Source: Candidatus Ozemibacter sibiricus (lineage in GTDB: Bacteria > Muiribacteriota > Ozemobacteria > Ozemobacterales > Ozemobacteraceae). Taken from it: DNA of 64,000 nt. The notes under the pieces were generated by a model. That model was not told the origin of the DNA. It did no database searches and saw nothing but the letters and a program-made list of their open reading frames with translations. A program made the position numbers and the translations under genes. The stretch spans positions 62,001 through 126,000 of the forward strand of contig QOQW01000016.1 in NCBI GenBank assembly GCA_003327425.1, read 5' to 3'. Below, piece after piece: positions 34,479 to 42,411 of this stretch; the first letter of the stretch is position 1, and each line of letters begins with the position of its first letter.

Positions 34479-35873
34479 ATGCCACGCTTGCTCTTGAACC
34501 GCCACCACGGATTCGCCGTTCACCAGCGACCGGCCGGAAAGACAGCGACCAGCGTGCTGGTCCAGACTTCCGCCCAAGGCCTGGTTCTGTTTCTGTTGAG
34601 CACCTTGCTCTGGGCCCTGGCCCTGGCTCGCCCCCTCCCCGCCTGGGACCAACACCACACCTTCACTGGTCTGGTGGTCGAGGCCCTGCAAACCGACCTT
34701 CCCCTCCTGCGGCAGCCGGTGAAACCCATGCCGCTGTCGGCCTTCCTCAAACGGCACGCTCCCGGCTTGAAAACCTTGCTGGCCGATTTCTACACCTGGA
34801 AAAAGCAGGTGTACTCCTATCCGCAATGGTTGCTGACGCCTGAATCGGAAGCCTGGCTGTATTCCTCCGAAGCGGCGGGAAAGTTGACGGAAGCGCGGTT
34901 CAAAGAGTTGCTGGGCGTGCGATCGACCGCCTTCGGGAGCGTCGATGTCCCTTCCTCTTCCTATCCGACCTTCGCGCCTGCCGCCCGTTCCTTCGGGGCG
35001 TGGGTGCGCTATTTTTCGGATGAACCCGACTGGGGAATGGACCAGGGATTATTCGGCAAGGGCGATCCACGGTATACCGAGATCCCCTATGGCGATATCG
35101 ACAAGCTCTCTTCGCAAGCGCCCTTCCACATGTATTTCGGCAATGAGAATGCGATCACCTACGCCGCGCGGCCGTCCCTCAAGCAGAGCATGACGCTGCT
35201 GCGCTTCTCCCTGTTCCAGCGATTGGCCGCCTTCGCCCTGGCCCGGCACGAATGGTTCTGGGGCGCGCGCTTCCTGGGCTGCGCCCTGCACTACCTGCAA
35301 GATGTGGCCATGCCCTATCATGCCAGCGCGCTGCCCTACGCCACCGTTTTCACCTATCTCAAATATGCCGTGGTCAAAGACAAGCAGAAGTTCCTGGCCG
35401 ATAACATGCAACTCCTGTCCAATCGCCATTTCGCCTACGAGGCCTTCGCCTATCGCTTCCTGACCCTGGCGAAGGAGCGCATCGAGCGGATCCTGCCCGA
35501 GTTCGACGCCATCATCGGCCGCGCCAGGAACGCGGCGCTGGGTTCCTCGGCCGAGCCGGCCTCCGATGAGCAGTTCCTGGTCAGCATTTTCAAACGGGTG
35601 GCGAAGGCGGCATACAAGCACGCCCGCCCCGTCGACAAGGTGATCGGCAAGACCTTCGAGCCCCGGCTGGTCAAAGATCCGACCTTCGATCCCGCTTCCA
35701 ACGAAGAATTCAAGGTCGAGACCTGGCTCACCGAGGCCTTGCTCGATGATTGGGTCGCCGGGAAGCGGTTTCCGCAGAAAGCCCTGTTCGATGAATTCCG
35801 GCCCGACCTCATCCGGACGCTCGAAGCCAGCACCATCCTGCTGACTCGCCTGCTCGCCCCGGTCAAATGGTGA
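34479..35873 (+). CDS. Exported zinc-dependent phospholipase C-like protein
   Basis: 464 residues. A long signal region (hydrophobic LVLFLLSTLLWALALA, residues ~35-50) ends ARPLPA before Trp56, so the mature protein would begin WDQHHTF. Zinc-dependent phospholipases C also begin with Trp, whose amino group binds zinc. The second hallmark is ALHYLQDVAMPYHAS (about residues 269-283), the HxxxD...H cluster shared by PLC and S1/P1 nucleases. The length exceeds the ~250-residue bacterial PLC core, with a helical C-terminal extension. The start follows AAAGGGGG. Phospholipid or nucleotide substrate is undecided. Confidence 0.72.
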   Translation: MPRLLLNRHHGFAVHQRPAGKTATSVLVQTSAQGLVLFLLSTLLWALALARPLPAWDQHHTFTGLVVEALQTDLPLLRQPVKPMPLSAFLKRHAPGLKTLLADFYTWKKQVYSYPQWLLTPESEAWLYSSEAAGKLTEARFKELLGVRSTAFGSVDVPSSSYPTFAPAARSFGAWVRYFSDEPDWGMDQGLFGKGDPRYTEIPYGDIDKLSSQAPFHMYFGNENAITYAARPSLKQSMTLLRFSLFQRLAAFALARHEWFWGARFLGCALHYLQDVAMPYHASALPYATVFTYLKYAVVKDKQKFLADNMQLLSNRHFAYEAFAYRFLTLAKERIERILPEFDAIIGRARNAALGSSAEPASDEQFLVSIFKRVAKAAYKHARPVDKVIGKTFEPRLVKDPTFDPASNEEFKVETWLTEALLDDWVAGKRFPQKALFDEFRPDLIRTLEASTILLTRLLAPVKW

Positions 35874-35907: not shown

Positions 35908-35950
35908 GCGGCGGCGCCGACCAGGCCGGTCGGCGCCGCCGCTTCTTCCT
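35908..35950. terminator. Strong terminator between convergent genes
   Basis: A perfect 15-bp stem (35908-35922 with 35928-35942, core GGCGCCGACC) and 5-base loop AGGCC are followed by TTCTTCCTC on the plus strand. It fits termination of the phospholipase C-like gene and may also stop the minus-strand cyclase transcript. Confidence 0.8.
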
Positions 35951-35976: not shown

Positions 35977-38900
35977 TCAGGCCAGAAGGTCGGGGGCGTT
36001 CAACCGGTAGGCGGTGACGGAGCGGGTCTTGCCCTTGATGGGCGGCAGCTCGAGCGGCACCAGCCGGTCGGCGAGGGCACGGTCGGGCGAGGTTCTGAGC
36101 AGCTCGTAGGTGCGGGCCTCCAGCACGACGCCGCCGCTGGCCCCCTGACTGTCGGGCAGGACGCCGCCGCCGGCGGACAGGCGCAGCGCCAGATCGCCGA
36201 GGCGCGAAGCCAGGTTGACGGTGTCGCCGATGACCGTGTATTCGAGGCGCACGTCGGGCGTGCCCATGATGCCGGCCAGCACCGGGCCGGTAACGACGCC
36301 CACGCCCAACGGGAGGTCGAGATCGCCCCGGATCCGAGCCATGGCTGCGCGCATGGTGGTGGCCGCCCGGGCCGCCGCGGCCGCCGCGGCCGCCGGGCCT
36401 CCCAGCCGGTCGGGATGGAAGACCGCCAGGATCTTGTCCCCGATGAACTTGTCGATGTCGCCGCCCGCTTCGCGGATGAGGCGGGCCATCGTTTCGAGGA
36501 AGCGATTGAGGCGGGGCACCAGGGTGACCGGATCTTCCGTCGCCAGCAGGTGCTTGAAGCCGGCCAGGCCGGCGAAGAGCACGGTGACTTCGAGGTGCTC
36601 GCCGGCGAGCGCGCGGCGGCCCCGCTCGTCGTCCGCCGCCGCCACGCGCACGGATTCCGAGACGAATCGGCTCAGCAGCCGGCCTTGTTCGACGCCGCTC
36701 GCGACGCGATTGAAGGCCTCGGCCAGCCGACCGAACTCGCCGCCGCGATCGACGGGCAGGCGGGCGGTGAAATCCTGCGCCAGGATGCGCGCGGCGGCGC
36801 CGGCCAGAGCCAGCACCGGCTCGAGGAACCGGCGGGCGATCCGCATGGCCAGCAGCAGGGTGAGCAGGAGCACGGCAGCCAGTCCCAGGCGGCGATGGAT
36901 GGCCCCCCCCTCGAGGCTGGCGCGGCGCTGGCCGATGGGCAGCTCGCCGATCAGGACGCGATCGTGGCGGTTGGCCCCGCGGTGCGCCAGGGTCAGCTTC
37001 GCGTCCTGTGCCTGGCCTTCCTCCCAGAAGGCCGGAAATCCGGACGATTCGGCCAGGTGACCGAGGGTCGACCAGGGCAGCGGGGTCATCGCGGGGTCCA
37101 TGTCATAACTGGGAGGGAAATCGGCATCGCCATCGTTACGGGGCATCCAGAAGGGCGGGCGATGCCACAGGCCAGGCGCTCGGGGTTCGAGCATGCCGAC
37201 CAGTCGGCAGGGCGCCGCCGGGGCGGCCAGGGTTTCGGCCCAGCCGGCCAGATGCTGGAAATCGGCGAATTCGCTGTTCAATCGCGCCTGGACTCCGTAC
37301 CGCGGGGTGCCGCGCTCCCAGAGGTTGAATCGCAGGAATTCATCCTGGCGCATGCCCGAAGCGAACGAGGAGACGGCGCGCGGCGCATGGAGCATGGCGG
37401 CCAGCACGTTGGGCGACATGATGCTGCTCAGGAAATCGCGGAACTCGTCGATGCCCACCGACATCAGCAGGTCGGAGCGGTCGTTCGTCGACAGGTTCGG
37501 ATTCAAGGTGCGCAATGACAGCCGGTGCATGGTGCTGAAAAATTTCACCAACGGCTCGGCCTGCCCGCGAGCGCGGTGGTAGACGAGATTCAGCCGGCCC
37601 GGGCCGATCACGAAGGCCTGGCTGAGCGGGAGGCCGCGTCGCATGTTCTGGCGATCGAGAGCGAACAAGACGGTGTCGAACGTCCGCTGGTCTTCGCGAT
37701 TGGAAGCCTGCTCGAGGCGGTGGAGCACCTGGCGCAGGTCGGGGTGGCGGAAGATGCGTTCCATGCCGGAAATCAGCCAGGCCAGGTAGAGGTCGCGCGT
37801 CTCGCTGATCGCCTTCATGGTGCGCTGCAGGCGTCCGACCTGATCGGTTTCCAGGCGGAGGCGGGCTTCGGCGAACGATCGCTCCATGAACAGGCTGCCC
37901 AGGGCCAGCACGGGCAGGATGGCGCTGACGAACACGACCGGCAGGCGGGTGGTCAGCGAACGGGCGAAGGTGCCCTTGCCCAGCATCAGCGCGGTGGTCA
38001 GCGCGACGCCGGTGCCGATCCAGAGCAGGGCGGCGACGGCCACTCCCCAGGACGGGATGATGGCCGGGCCTTCGGCAAGGCCGGTGGTTGGCCGGGCGAG
38101 CCAGACCTCATATTCCCGGTCGAGCACGATCCGGCCTCTGATCACACCGAACCCGGGGACGGCGAACGGCTCGCCCAGGCGGTGATCGGCCGCGCCCAGA
38201 GCCTGGCTCAGGGCGGGGTAGCGCAGGAACGTGGGATGGACGAGGTGTTCGAGGGCATCCCCGTCGAGGGGGCGGATCGCGGCCGTGATGCCCAGTCCGT
38301 CGAGATTGCGGAGGGCCGCCTTCAGCGCGAAATCGGCCGAGAGGTCGTCGGGGTGGATGAAGAGAAGCACGCCGCCGAAGGTGTGGGCGAACGAATGGAG
38401 CCGCGTGGCGGTGGGAAAATACCTGGGATGATTCTCGGGCAGTCCGGTCAGGGGCTGCGACTGCACGAGCGGGGCGACCAGGGCCAGGCGGGGCCGCCCA
38501 CCCAGACGAGGGATGGTGGTCAGCGCCTGGATGGCGCTGCGCATCAAGGCGACGAAGGATTTGAGGCCCAGCTGGGTTTCGAGAAAGACGACCTGGCTTT
38601 TGGGCAGGTGTGGCGTGACATGCCAGAGGCCGGCCATGCAGAGGATGTAGAGGTCGAGGGGGTTGACCGGGTCCAGATCGATGACGGCTCCCCCCGAGGC
38701 GACGAGGGTGAAGCCTTCGCTGGCCAGCCGGTCATCGCGGAAGAACGGAGCATGCCGGAACAGGAACCAGGAGGTGCGTGGCAGCAGGCTCTGCAGGTCG
38801 CGCATCTTGCGCGGCAGGCGTTCGAGCAGATCGGACGCGAGGGCCGCGCCGGTCGCTTCGCCACGGATGAGGTCGTGCAGCAGGCGGTTGATCAGGAGGG

Positions 38901-41900
38901 AGCCCTGCACCTGGGCATCGATCGAGCGCTCGAACAAGGCCAGGTCGTCCTGGAGCCGGTGCGCCAAGGTGGCCTGCTGGCGCGCGGCGGCCCAGCGGTC
39001 GAAGAGATGCCACAGGCCATAGCCCAGCACAAGAGGGAACAACCACAGCCCCAAACCGGCCGCCAGAACGAAGCGGGAAGGGGCGCGAGGGGTGGCCTGG
39101 TCAGCGGCGGCCGGCGCAGGGGCGGAGGCGGAGCGGGGGCCGGCGGCCGGGCGGGGGGGCATCGGATCGGCGAGCGTGGGGCCGGGGGGCGCGGTTGGGG
39201 AGGGCGTCGGGCCAGGGGCTGGCGAGGCAGGAGCCCCCAGAGGGGCGGAGGTGGCTGGGGTGGGGCCGCCAGCCGAGGAAGAGGAGCTGGCCGGCGCCCG
39301 GCCGCCTTCTCCCGGCGGGGCGGGGGGCGGGGTGGACGGCGATGAGGCGGGCGGGACGCTGGTCGGCGGGTCGGTGGGGCCGTCGGCCAGTTCCCAGACC
39401 TCGCCAACCGAAGGGTCGGTCAGGGGCAGGAAGGTGAAGCCCGGCCCGGCCTGCGCGCGCACGGCCGGCGAGCAGACCACCTTCAGGGCGCGCCCGCCCT
39501 TGGAGGCGGCTTCCAGGTCGGCGGCATGCTTGAACGGTTCTCCCAGCACGGTGAAATCGAGGCGATGCTGGCGATCGCCGGTGACGCCGGTGACGACCGG
39601 CCCGACCTCGATGCCGATGCCGATCTGGTAGGTGAACTCGCCGGCCGCCTGCCGCTCGCGGTTGAAGGCCTGGTGCGCGGCCATCATGGCGCGGGCGGCG
39701 CTCAGGGCGCGATCGACCATGGAGGCGCCGCTGTCGGAGGGGAAGAAGACCGCCTGGATGGCATCGCCGATGAAGCGGTCGATCACCCCGCCGTGCTGGC
39801 GCAGGATGGTGGTCATGATCTGCAGGTGGCGATTGATGAGCGCGAACATGCGATCGGGAGGGTACGTCTCGGACAGCGTGGTGAAGCTGCGCACATCGCT
39901 CACCAGCAGCACCAGCTCGCGGGCGGTCGGGCGGGCCGCCTGCTCCAGATCGCCGTGCGCCACCACTTCGAGCACCTGGGGGGCGACGAAGCGGCTCATG
40001 GCCTGTCGTTCCTGCAGCCATCGCGCCATGCGGTCGAGGGTGCGGCCGGTGGTGCCCAGCTCGTCGTCGCGGGGCTCGGCGATGCGGACCTCGAGGTCGA
40101 ACCGCTCGGCGGCCACCACCTGCAAGCCGTCGATCATGCGGACGATCGGACGGGCCAGCCAGCGTTCGAGGCCGACGCCGCCCAGCAGCACCAGGCCCAG
40201 GATCGCCAGCAGGGCGAGGCCGCTGCGCCTGGCTTCCTGGGCGAGTTCCTCGCGCAAGGGCCGCAGCGAGGCGGTGGCGCCCAGCAGAATGCCGGGCAGG
40301 CGGCGGCTGGGGAAGGCGATCAAGAGACGATCTTCGAGCCGGTCGACGACGGTGCCGGTCCGCAGCTGGCGGGCGATCTGGCCCAGGGTGGCGTCGCGCG
40401 GCGGGCCGGCGATGGCCTGCCACCCTTCGTGGCGGCGGCGGAACGCGAAGAAGCGGGCCCCGCGGTCGTCGGGCTCGGCGGCGTTCTGGCGGTCGATGGC
40501 TTCGCGCAGGTACTGGTCGAGCTGGGTGTCCATGTTCCAGAGGATGAAGATGGCCCATCGCGGCTGGCCCTCCAGCTCGATCAGATTGAAATAGCGCAGG
40601 GTGTGGCGTTCGCCCAGGGAGATGGCGGCCACGACGTCGGGCACCGGCAGCAGATCCTGGTTCGTTGAGAACAGGCCCAGGCCCCCGATGGCGGCGGCGG
40701 TCGACAGCTTGCGCGGACCGATCGCCGGCGGCGTCGAGGGGGCGGTCGAGGGGGCGGTCGAGGTGGTGGTCGTCGTGGCGAACGTGCGCAGCACCTCGTT
40801 GGCGATGGCGTGATGGAAGCCCGTCAGGGTCCTGGTCTGGTTGGGGCCCAGCCGGTGGTGGGGCGGAAAGGCCGCATAGCAGCGGTGCTGGTCGACCAGC
40901 AGGATGCCGATGACATCCATGTCGGCGTCGCGGCAGCGGCGGAGGAGGTCGTCGGCCTGGCGCTGTCCGGTGGCATCGCCCTGGGAGGCGGGCAGGGTTT
41001 CTACCTCCTTGAGCCGGGCGAGCAGCTCGGGAGAATGGGCCAGCGTACGGCAGAGCGTCTGGTAGCGCAGGGTCAGCCGGGAACTGCCGGTCTCGAGGTC
41101 GAGGAGGCGCCGTTCCAGGCGTCGCGTCAATTGGAATTCCCGATTGCTGGTCAGATGGAGGCTGAATTGCTCCCCGGTGGCGATGATCAAGGCCATCGGG
41201 GTGGCGGCGAGGCCGACGAACCACCACTGCAATTCCTGGCGGACGCCGAGGGCGGGCCACGAACGGCCCAGGCCGCGGCGCAGGAGGAGGAAGCCCCAGG
41301 CCAGACCCAGGCACGCGCCATAGAGGCGGGCCAGGCGGGTGGTCCAGAGCGGGCGTTCGGCCGGGGCCGGCCCGACCAGGACTGGCAGATGCGCCATCCA
41401 GATCGAGGGGACGCCGGCCAGGCCCCACCAGCCGTCGGCCTCGACCACCTCGATGGTGGCTTCGGCGGGCAGGCGGGTGCGGCCGACCTGCCGGTCGGGC
41501 GGGGGGGGGCGCTCGACCATGCGCCGCGCCAGCCCGCGAAGGAGGCGGCGCGCCGCCGGGCGGCGCAGCGCCGGATGCAGGACCGGGCGGGCGATGGCGG
41601 GGCGCGGGCCGGGGAGCGGGAGGAAGGCCGGCCAGATGGCTTCCCCGGCCCGCACTCGCTTCCAGGTATGCAATGTGGCGAGCAGCGGCAGGCGGATCTC
41701 ATCCTGGCGAACCGGCACGGCCAGCAGGAAGGCGCCATGGGGGCGCCCGCCGCGCCGCAGCAGGTTCCACACCACCAACTGCTGGCGGCCCTGCAGGATC
41801 GCATAGAACGCTCGCCCCCGCCAGGGCAGGGTGAACAGGTCGGGCACGCAGCCTTCCCCGAAGGTCGAACGCAACCGGGCCTCCCAGGTTGGCGTGAGGA

Positions 41901-42411
41901 GTTGATTGGGCAAGCCGTTCCATTCGCGCCCCACTTCTTCCAGGACGCGGGCGAGAATGAAGCGCAGGTTGGTGGAGAATCCTCGCCCGCTCATCAACAC
42001 CGCCGGCCGGGCCAGAGTGGGGTCGGGGAAGGAGGCGGCCCAGAGGGTCGCCCCGCGGCCGCCAGGCAGATAGGTGCGGGCAGCGGCTCGGCGCAGCGCG
42101 CGCTCGTTGCGGGCAGGCGTCGGGGCCGCCTCGCCGAGGGCGGCGCGCCATTCTTCCTGGAGCTGGCGTCCGGCCAGCTCGACCCAGGTCGGGTAGGCCG
42201 CTCGTTCTTGGAGGTGGTGAGCCAGCCGGGTCGCCCGGTCGGCCCACTCCCGCTTCTGCTCCTCGCGCTGCAAGGTGCGCAGGCCATCGGCCTCGATCTG
42301 CAGCACCAGCCAGGGCAGCACCGACAGCAGCAGGGGCAGCAGCCAGGCCGCCACCCGCCCGTCTTTTGCAGAGCCTGTCCTCTCCGTCACCGTGCCACCC
42401 TCGCGACGCAT
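35977..42411 (-). CDS. Giant two-module membrane nucleotide cyclase with complementary half-active sites
   Basis: 2144 residues in one frame, built as two like modules. Module 1 has predicted spans at ~22-37, 363-378, 396-412 and 731-748, a HAMP-like segment (~750-805) and class III cyclase domain 1 (~830-985). A Pro/Ala/Ser linker (~1011-1110) precedes module 2, with spans ~1113-1133, 1453-1475, 1490-1508 and 1842-1857, HAMP (~1859-1910) and cyclase domain 2 (~1938-2135). Domain 1 has both metal Asp (839 in VSDVRSF, 883 in FIGDAI), but the Asn/Arg positions read Lys961/Asp965. Domain 2 has Gly1948 for the first metal Asp but keeps Asp1992, Lys1988, Thr2059, Asn2066 and Arg2070. One composite site could form; Lys/Thr suggests ATP. 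GTG at 42390, after GAGGG, is an alternative start. Confidence 0.9.
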   Translation of the reverse strand: MRREGGTVTERTGSAKDGRVAAWLLPLLLSVLPWLVLQIEADGLRTLQREEQKREWADRATRLAHHLQERAAYPTWVELAGRQLQEEWRAALGEAAPTPARNERALRRAAARTYLPGGRGATLWAASFPDPTLARPAVLMSGRGFSTNLRFILARVLEEVGREWNGLPNQLLTPTWEARLRSTFGEGCVPDLFTLPWRGRAFYAILQGRQQLVVWNLLRRGGRPHGAFLLAVPVRQDEIRLPLLATLHTWKRVRAGEAIWPAFLPLPGPRPAIARPVLHPALRRPAARRLLRGLARRMVERPPPPDRQVGRTRLPAEATIEVVEADGWWGLAGVPSIWMAHLPVLVGPAPAERPLWTTRLARLYGACLGLAWGFLLLRRGLGRSWPALGVRQELQWWFVGLAATPMALIIATGEQFSLHLTSNREFQLTRRLERRLLDLETGSSRLTLRYQTLCRTLAHSPELLARLKEVETLPASQGDATGQRQADDLLRRCRDADMDVIGILLVDQHRCYAAFPPHHRLGPNQTRTLTGFHHAIANEVLRTFATTTTTSTAPSTAPSTPPAIGPRKLSTAAAIGGLGLFSTNQDLLPVPDVVAAISLGERHTLRYFNLIELEGQPRWAIFILWNMDTQLDQYLREAIDRQNAAEPDDRGARFFAFRRRHEGWQAIAGPPRDATLGQIARQLRTGTVVDRLEDRLLIAFPSRRLPGILLGATASLRPLREELAQEARRSGLALLAILGLVLLGGVGLERWLARPIVRMIDGLQVVAAERFDLEVRIAEPRDDELGTTGRTLDRMARWLQERQAMSRFVAPQVLEVVAHGDLEQAARPTARELVLLVSDVRSFTTLSETYPPDRMFALINRHLQIMTTILRQHGGVIDRFIGDAIQAVFFPSDSGASMVDRALSAARAMMAAHQAFNRERQAAGEFTYQIGIGIEVGPVVTGVTGDRQHRLDFTVLGEPFKHAADLEAASKGGRALKVVCSPAVRAQAGPGFTFLPLTDPSVGEVWELADGPTDPPTSVPPASSPSTPPPAPPGEGGRAPASSSSSAGGPTPATSAPLGAPASPAPGPTPSPTAPPGPTLADPMPPRPAAGPRSASAPAPAAADQATPRAPSRFVLAAGLGLWLFPLVLGYGLWHLFDRWAAARQQATLAHRLQDDLALFERSIDAQVQGSLLINRLLHDLIRGEATGAALASDLLERLPRKMRDLQSLLPRTSWFLFRHAPFFRDDRLASEGFTLVASGGAVIDLDPVNPLDLYILCMAGLWHVTPHLPKSQVVFLETQLGLKSFVALMRSAIQALTTIPRLGGRPRLALVAPLVQSQPLTGLPENHPRYFPTATRLHSFAHTFGGVLLFIHPDDLSADFALKAALRNLDGLGITAAIRPLDGDALEHLVHPTFLRYPALSQALGAADHRLGEPFAVPGFGVIRGRIVLDREYEVWLARPTTGLAEGPAIIPSWGVAVAALLWIGTGVALTTALMLGKGTFARSLTTRLPVVFVSAILPVLALGSLFMERSFAEARLRLETDQVGRLQRTMKAISETRDLYLAWLISGMERIFRHPDLRQVLHRLEQASNREDQRTFDTVLFALDRQNMRRGLPLSQAFVIGPGRLNLVYHRARGQAEPLVKFFSTMHRLSLRTLNPNLSTNDRSDLLMSVGIDEFRDFLSSIMSPNVLAAMLHAPRAVSSFASGMRQDEFLRFNLWERGTPRYGVQARLNSEFADFQHLAGWAETLAAPAAPCRLVGMLEPRAPGLWHRPPFWMPRNDGDADFPPSYDMDPAMTPLPWSTLGHLAESSGFPAFWEEGQAQDAKLTLAHRGANRHDRVLIGELPIGQRRASLEGGAIHRRLGLAAVLLLTLLLAMRIARRFLEPVLALAGAAARILAQDFTARLPVDRGGEFGRLAEAFNRVASGVEQGRLLSRFVSESVRVAAADDERGRRALAGEHLEVTVLFAGLAGFKHLLATEDPVTLVPRLNRFLETMARLIREAGGDIDKFIGDKILAVFHPDRLGGPAAAAAAAARAATTMRAAMARIRGDLDLPLGVGVVTGPVLAGIMGTPDVRLEYTVIGDTVNLASRLGDLALRLSAGGGVLPDSQGASGGVVLEARTYELLRTSPDRALADRLVPLELPPIKGKTRSVTAYRLNAPDLLA

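Follow-up and report, generated by a model that had tools for sequence, protein, structure and literature searches.

Class III nucleotide cyclases form their catalytic sites between two domains, the metals being bound by one and the Asn/Arg pair coming from the other; a lysine recognises the base, and Asn and Arg hold the transition state. The bacterial members homodimerise (PMC9552081; PMC4821796), which has been described as a fundamental difference from the eukaryotic enzymes (PMC4821796), and a 2022 review states that no fused dimer of class III cyclase domains is known from bacteria (PMC9552081). A gene of Candidatus Ozemibacter sibiricus, found in the 64,000-nucleotide stretch analysed here (the window; contig QOQW01000016.1, positions 62,001 to 126,000), raises the question of whether such a protein exists after all. 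Its 2144-residue product (35977..42411, minus strand) carries two cyclase domains, here called A and B, which had been read from the sequence alone as complementary half-sites, an arrangement for which this original prediction, in agreement with the review, knew no described bacterial protein. We consider it highly probable that the window protein and its relatives are class IIIb-like adenylyl cyclases that work only as A-B heterodimers, with one predicted live composite site, and that they originated independently of the animal transmembrane adenylyl cyclases (tmACs).

Two half-sites in a single frame

The gene is one uninterrupted open frame with an ATG start and with Pfam matches to two HAMP and two Guanylate_cyc domains, and is annotated here as a single-chain A-B (pseudoheterodimeric) receptor cyclase. 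The cyclase homology domain (PF00211) is present in both halves. Domain A (residues 833-974; 39490..39915, minus strand) is C1-like and forms the metal donor half: alignment with OaPAC shows that both metal-binding aspartates, D839 and D883, are kept, and that Arg879, Lys961 and Asp965 occupy the Lys, Asn and Arg positions (class pattern DRDTKD). Domain B (residues 1938-2072 and on to about 2140; 36196..36600, minus strand) is C2-like; when aligned with CyaB and mycobacterial cyclases it has Gly1948 in place of the first metal aspartate and keeps D1992, K1988, T2059, N2066 and R2070 (class pattern GKDTNR). Thr rather than Asp partners the base-recognising lysine in domain B (K1988/T2059), as in class IIIb enzymes. 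The complete catalytic set, consisting of two metal aspartates, the base-recognition pair, Asn and Arg, is obtained only when A and B are combined, and neither domain holds it alone. All of the residue numbers in the original prediction are correct; the absence of the base-recognising lysine from domain A (Arg879) and the retention of the second metal aspartate by domain B (D1992) go beyond it.

Complementary pairs in the source genome and its relatives

The window protein is not a singleton: it belongs to a large paralogous family. The 5.7-Mb source genome contains 53 PF00211 matches, from which 54 cyclase domains were readable after re-extraction. We classed a domain as A-type if it has both metal aspartates and never both Asn and Arg, and as B-type if Lys, Thr, Asn and Arg are all present and at least one metal aspartate is missing. 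By these definitions 34 of the 54 domains form 17 pairs, every one of which joins one A-type to one B-type domain. Seven pairs are fused in a single frame (2,151-2,424 codons), always with A preceding B, and the other ten are encoded by adjacent genes, seven in the order A-B and three in the order B-A. The complete catalytic set is carried by 18 of the 20 unpaired domains.

The homologue search that had been proposed for the window protein returned 81 distinct complementary pairs from about 20 genomes, all belonging to a single Candidatus Riflebacteria family: 47 fused pairs (17 genomes), 25 split A-B pairs and nine split B-A pairs. Titled records among these relatives bear the names Candidatus Riflebacteria, Candidatus Ozemobacteraceae and Candidatus Rifleibacterium amylolyticum. 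No complete pair was excluded from this set for breaking the pattern; only duplicates and two loci were set aside, L239 because its partner lies beyond the sequence retrieved, and the fused frame L244 because its B domain could be aligned only in part (Lys, Ser, Asn and Arg, with the first metal position unaligned). Both metal aspartates are present in all 81 A domains, none of which has both Asn and Arg, while all 81 B domains have the Lys-Thr-Asn-Arg set and none has both metal aspartates. The proposed complementarity of the half-sites is thus borne out in every pair, and chance is ruled out by complementary loss in 81 of 81 pairs against a complete set in 18 of 20 unpaired domains. The same count rejects a one-off degeneration or a sequencing error. 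At the vacated Asn/Arg positions the A domains show 46 distinct residue combinations, which looks like free decay and not like reuse of the dead site.

These data bear on three other explanations. The long frame could be an artefact, two genes joined by an assembly error or a chance open frame in GC-rich DNA, and the genomes used do include metagenome assemblies; we give this virtually no credence, being refuted by the orthologues, since uninterrupted two-domain homologues occur in 17 genomes of the family and fall into two supported clades. Alternatively, the paired domains could be decayed cyclases that are no longer enzymes and are kept as scaffolds for signal transmission. Half of the catalytic residues are indeed missing from each domain, and one lone domain of the same genome has lost both halves of the site, but if decay were random, the half that is spared would not be precisely the complementary one in 81 of 81 pairs, which makes this explanation most improbable. 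The third concerns the product, which could be cyclic guanosine monophosphate (cGMP) or another cyclic nucleotide instead of cyclic adenosine monophosphate (cAMP). Some class III enzymes do stray from the residue rule, among them the guanylyl cyclase Cya2, which is found among the matches of the A-domain profile; against this, all 81 B domains have Lys and Thr at the base-recognition positions, a combination characteristic of bacterial class IIIb adenylyl cyclases, CyaC for example, so that we regard a product other than cAMP as quite unlikely.

The lone domain without either half of the site (L047, near 88426 of contig C29 in the source genome) has the pattern GKETRH and lies in a 786-codon frame. 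In a tree built from the 54 domains it is basal to A and B together; it is perhaps a pure regulator or a relic. The source genome also encodes 14 matches to cyclic nucleotide monophosphate (cNMP)-binding domains in 12 frames, which are possible readers of the cyclase signal. With 53 class III cyclase matches against 12 such frames, the cAMP input side is unusually large for a genome of this size.

Distribution, origin and fusion of the pairs

Pairs of the same kind are present in a second family of the phylum (f3), where they were seen only as split genes in the order B-A. One f3 locus (L275, G032:C9:190600-210500) encodes three B-A cyclase gene pairs in tandem, the B domains of which have lost both metal aspartates and carry Gly and Lys at these positions (GKKTNR). 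Among the matches examined from other families of the phylum, pairs were seen only in f3, and a scan of genome contigs found no complementary A/B pair among the best 80 loci outside the window's family. Two loci first appeared to be relatives in other phyla, L097 in a record titled Methylomirabilis and L089 in an unplaced bacterium. Contig numbers and positions match their genomes to G009 and G008, respectively, of the window's own family, so they provide no evidence of wider spread. The public records titled Candidatus Methylomirabilis (L097, on the same contig as G009) and Borreliella garinii (L148), which come from one cave series, look misnamed.

Adjacent and overlapping cyclase genes are also found in Reyranella and Rhodospirillales records of the Alphaproteobacteria (L111, L121, L122, L123, L129 and L143). 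Both partners have all metal aspartates, Asn and Arg, and the base-recognising lysine is replaced by Asn or Ser in one partner and by Thr in the other. These pairs are of a different kind and are possibly heterodimeric, with an altered choice of substrate.

In the tree of 54 domains the A domains form one clade (support 100/97) and the B domains adjoin it; both are separate from the complete cyclases, and a single anomalous unpaired domain branches off at their base. The distance matrices of A and B are correlated (mirror-tree, r=0.70 over 17 pairs), and none of 20,000 permutations reached as high a value (p<0.0001), showing that the two types have co-evolved. Duplication followed by division of labour, as originally proposed, fits these trees, in which each type is essentially one group and the two mirror one another. 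The f3 A and B domains group with the A and B domains of the window's family, and duplication and division of labour therefore appear to predate the divergence of these two Riflebacteria families.

A tree built from concatenated pairs requires three changes of the fused state, at least two of them by well-supported branches, and the fused pairs constitute two clades of 20 and 27 rows. Within a fused clade lies a probable re-split, formed by a pair on contig C36 of the source genome (L043, G000:C36:97066-103841) together with L083; each consists of two overlapping frames, and they belong to two species of the genus. Their split state is probably due to gene fission, or to a frameshift. Stop and start codons often overlap in the split pairs, with the start at -1 in 21 of 32, which would be consistent with coupled translation of the partners. 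Taken together, the trees suggest duplication and a division of labour between separate neighbouring genes, with fusion following later on at least two occasions.

Predicted pairing of the two domains

The two cyclase domains of the window protein together span more than 1,200 residues, and the fused relative in which this span is shortest (L213, from genome G014) was modelled in its place with AlphaFold2 (1,148 residues, 47 fused sequences). The model has a mean predicted confidence (pLDDT) of 83 and a predicted template modelling score (pTM) of 0.60. Its best Foldseek matches in the PDB are the full-length adenylyl cyclases AC5, AC9 and AC8; normalised to query length, their TM-scores are 0.31-0.35, compared to 0.15-0.19 for single-domain bacterial cyclases; TMt for single-domain PDB cyclases is about 0.8. 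As one domain of about 200 residues yields at most about 0.17, the superposition on C1 and C2 must involve the two L213 domains simultaneously. The scores suggest that the two domains of this relative adopt a C1-C2 arrangement, and the pairing foreseen for the window protein is to this extent upheld. Profiles of the domains assign them in the same way: the A profile matches C1 of AC5 and AC8, VC1 and the C1 region of soluble adenylyl cyclase (sAC), while the B profile matches C2 of AC5 and AC8, IIC2 and the sAC C2 region. AC9 is an exception, both profiles preferring its C1. The closest profile matches of both A and B are bacterial class IIIb enzymes.

The composite site could instead lie between two chains, in which case fused proteins would homodimerise and have two live sites, and not be monomers with one. 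The existence of split pairs means that a covalent link between A and B is not required, and a solved dimeric form of AC5 (8sl4) is among the Foldseek matches. The single-chain L213 model, by contrast, pairs the domains within the chain, though no alternative partner was offered to it. We favour pairing within the chain and hold the between-chain alternative to be unlikely.

Comparison with known cyclases

The animal tmACs (ADCY1-9), whose full-length structures are the best fold matches of L213, share with the window protein a single chain in which a cyclase domain follows each of two membrane modules. Their first domain likewise provides the metal aspartates and their second the Lys/Asn/Arg residues, in an order identical to that of the A-B fusions, and it is their C1 that the A profile finds and their C2 that the B profile finds. 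They differ in having bundles of six transmembrane (TM) segments, whereas the window modules have four together with large extracytoplasmic segments and HAMP domains, and in the base-recognition aspartate of class IIIa, the place of which is taken by Thr in all 81 B domains. Moreover, the nearest relatives of the A and B domains are not the tmACs but bacterial class IIIb enzymes, and the likeness to the tmACs is most simply seen as convergent.

The bacterial class IIIb homodimers CyaC of Spirulina/Arthrospira, CyaB of P. aeruginosa and OaPAC are closest by sequence and share the Lys/Thr/Asn/Arg signature of domain B, but carry the full catalytic set on each chain, whereas in the A-B proteins it is divided over two domains. 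Rv1625c (Cya) of M. tuberculosis, regarded as a progenitor of the tmACs, is a membrane-anchored class III cyclase like the window protein; unlike it, Rv1625c is a homodimer of complete chains with a 6-TM anchor and no HAMP. Artificial half-mutants of Rv1625c complement one another, the inactive D300A and R376A forms regaining activity together (PMC4821796). Complementary C1 and C2 regions in a single chain are also found in sAC (ADCY10), and the heterodimeric soluble guanylyl cyclase divides the complementarity over alpha and beta subunits; both are soluble eukaryotic enzymes with sensors unrelated to those of the window protein. A literature search, which reached few subscription papers or preprints, found no papers on Riflebacteria cyclases.

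One bacterial phylum displays the whole path, from complete cyclases through split pairs in two gene orders to fusions in one chain, which have at least two origins. The 2022 review (PMC9552081) posed as an open question what advantage a fused dimer has over separate monomers, and this becomes testable on related split and fused enzymes of the same genome.

Proposed mechanism

In the mechanism we propose, A and B would pair head to tail to give one working site, composed of the metals of A and Lys1988, Thr2059, Asn2066 and Arg2070 of B, and one dead site. The Lys/Thr pair predicts adenosine triphosphate (ATP) as substrate and cAMP as product. Either domain by itself or as a homodimer would be expected to be inactive, so that output would depend on the relative position of the two modules, which two different membrane sensors would set through the HAMP domains. 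Division of labour would have followed duplication into adjacent genes before the two Candidatus Riflebacteria families separated; the pairs would then have multiplied, and some would have fused in the order A then B.

Several observations weigh against this proposal. Domain B keeps Asp1992, and part of a second metal site therefore remains. A few B domains (L107, L141 and L246) are placed near the A group in the tree, so the single origin of B is not fully clean. The modelled protein is a relative and not the window protein, and TM-scores are the basis on which its domains are judged to pair. A model of one chain cannot tell pairing inside a chain from pairing of two chains, and AlphaFold2 may favour known cyclase dimers.

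More tentatively, and with rather less than even confidence, we suggest that the A-B pair serves as a coincidence detector, an independently built tmAC-like receptor system that would be active only when two different extracytoplasmic sensors are in compatible states, fusion ensuring that every A stays with its proper B in a cell that has some 17 paralogous pairs. If so, the split and fused forms alive today would retrace, step by step, the origin of the adenylyl cyclases of animals.

Membrane modules and sensors

Frame, Pfam and hydropathy agree with the two sensor-4TM-HAMP-cyclase modules first described for the window protein. Each module has the plan TM, extracytoplasmic segment, TM, TM, extracytoplasmic segment, TM, HAMP and cyclase domain; the two sensor modules of the original prediction therefore stand, but with two extracytoplasmic segments each, four in all, where it had counted two sensors. 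The module A membrane sensor (residues 21-748; 40168..42351, minus strand, as are all parts of the gene) has hydropathy peaks at residues 21-39, 360-378, 394-412 and 730-748, the middle two of which are weak, and is followed by HAMP at residues 750-796 (40024..40164; PF00672, E 4.6e-7). A Pro/Ala/Ser-rich linker, recognised by composition (about residues 1008-1112; 39076..39390), leads to the module B sensor (residues 1115-1860; 36832..39069), with peaks at 1115-1133, 1457-1475, 1490-1508 and 1842-1860, and its HAMP (residues 1857-1905; 36697..36843; PF00672).

Apart from one marginal match, Pfam assigns no family to the sensor part in any of 34 modules. An AlphaFold2 model of the module A sensor (residues 19-761; pLDDT 84.5, pTM 0.74) matches dCache domains, which have a double PAS-like extracytoplasmic fold between two TM helices, in Foldseek with E values of 1e-5 to 1e-3 and TMt of 0.3-0.46, and the sensor is predicted to resemble double-Cache ligand-binding domains. 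The dCache chemoreceptors and histidine kinases Tlp3, TlpQ and DctB may share the fold of the model, and they resemble the window protein in having HAMP after the last TM segment; the window sensor differs from them in lacking a sequence match, in its two extracytoplasmic segments per module and in its output domain.

Neighbourhood of the gene

The neighbouring genes, which encode an aminotransferase, an M14 peptidase, and ankyrin and WG-repeat proteins, give no hint of the cyclase signal. A terminator-like, GC-rich hairpin of 15 pairs (35908-35942) lies between the convergent genes 34479-35873 (plus strand) and 35977-42411 (minus strand). The former encodes a 464-residue protein without a Pfam match; judged by eye, its stretch HYLQDVAMPYHAS is similar to the zinc-site motif found in zinc-dependent phospholipase C and S1-P1 nucleases.

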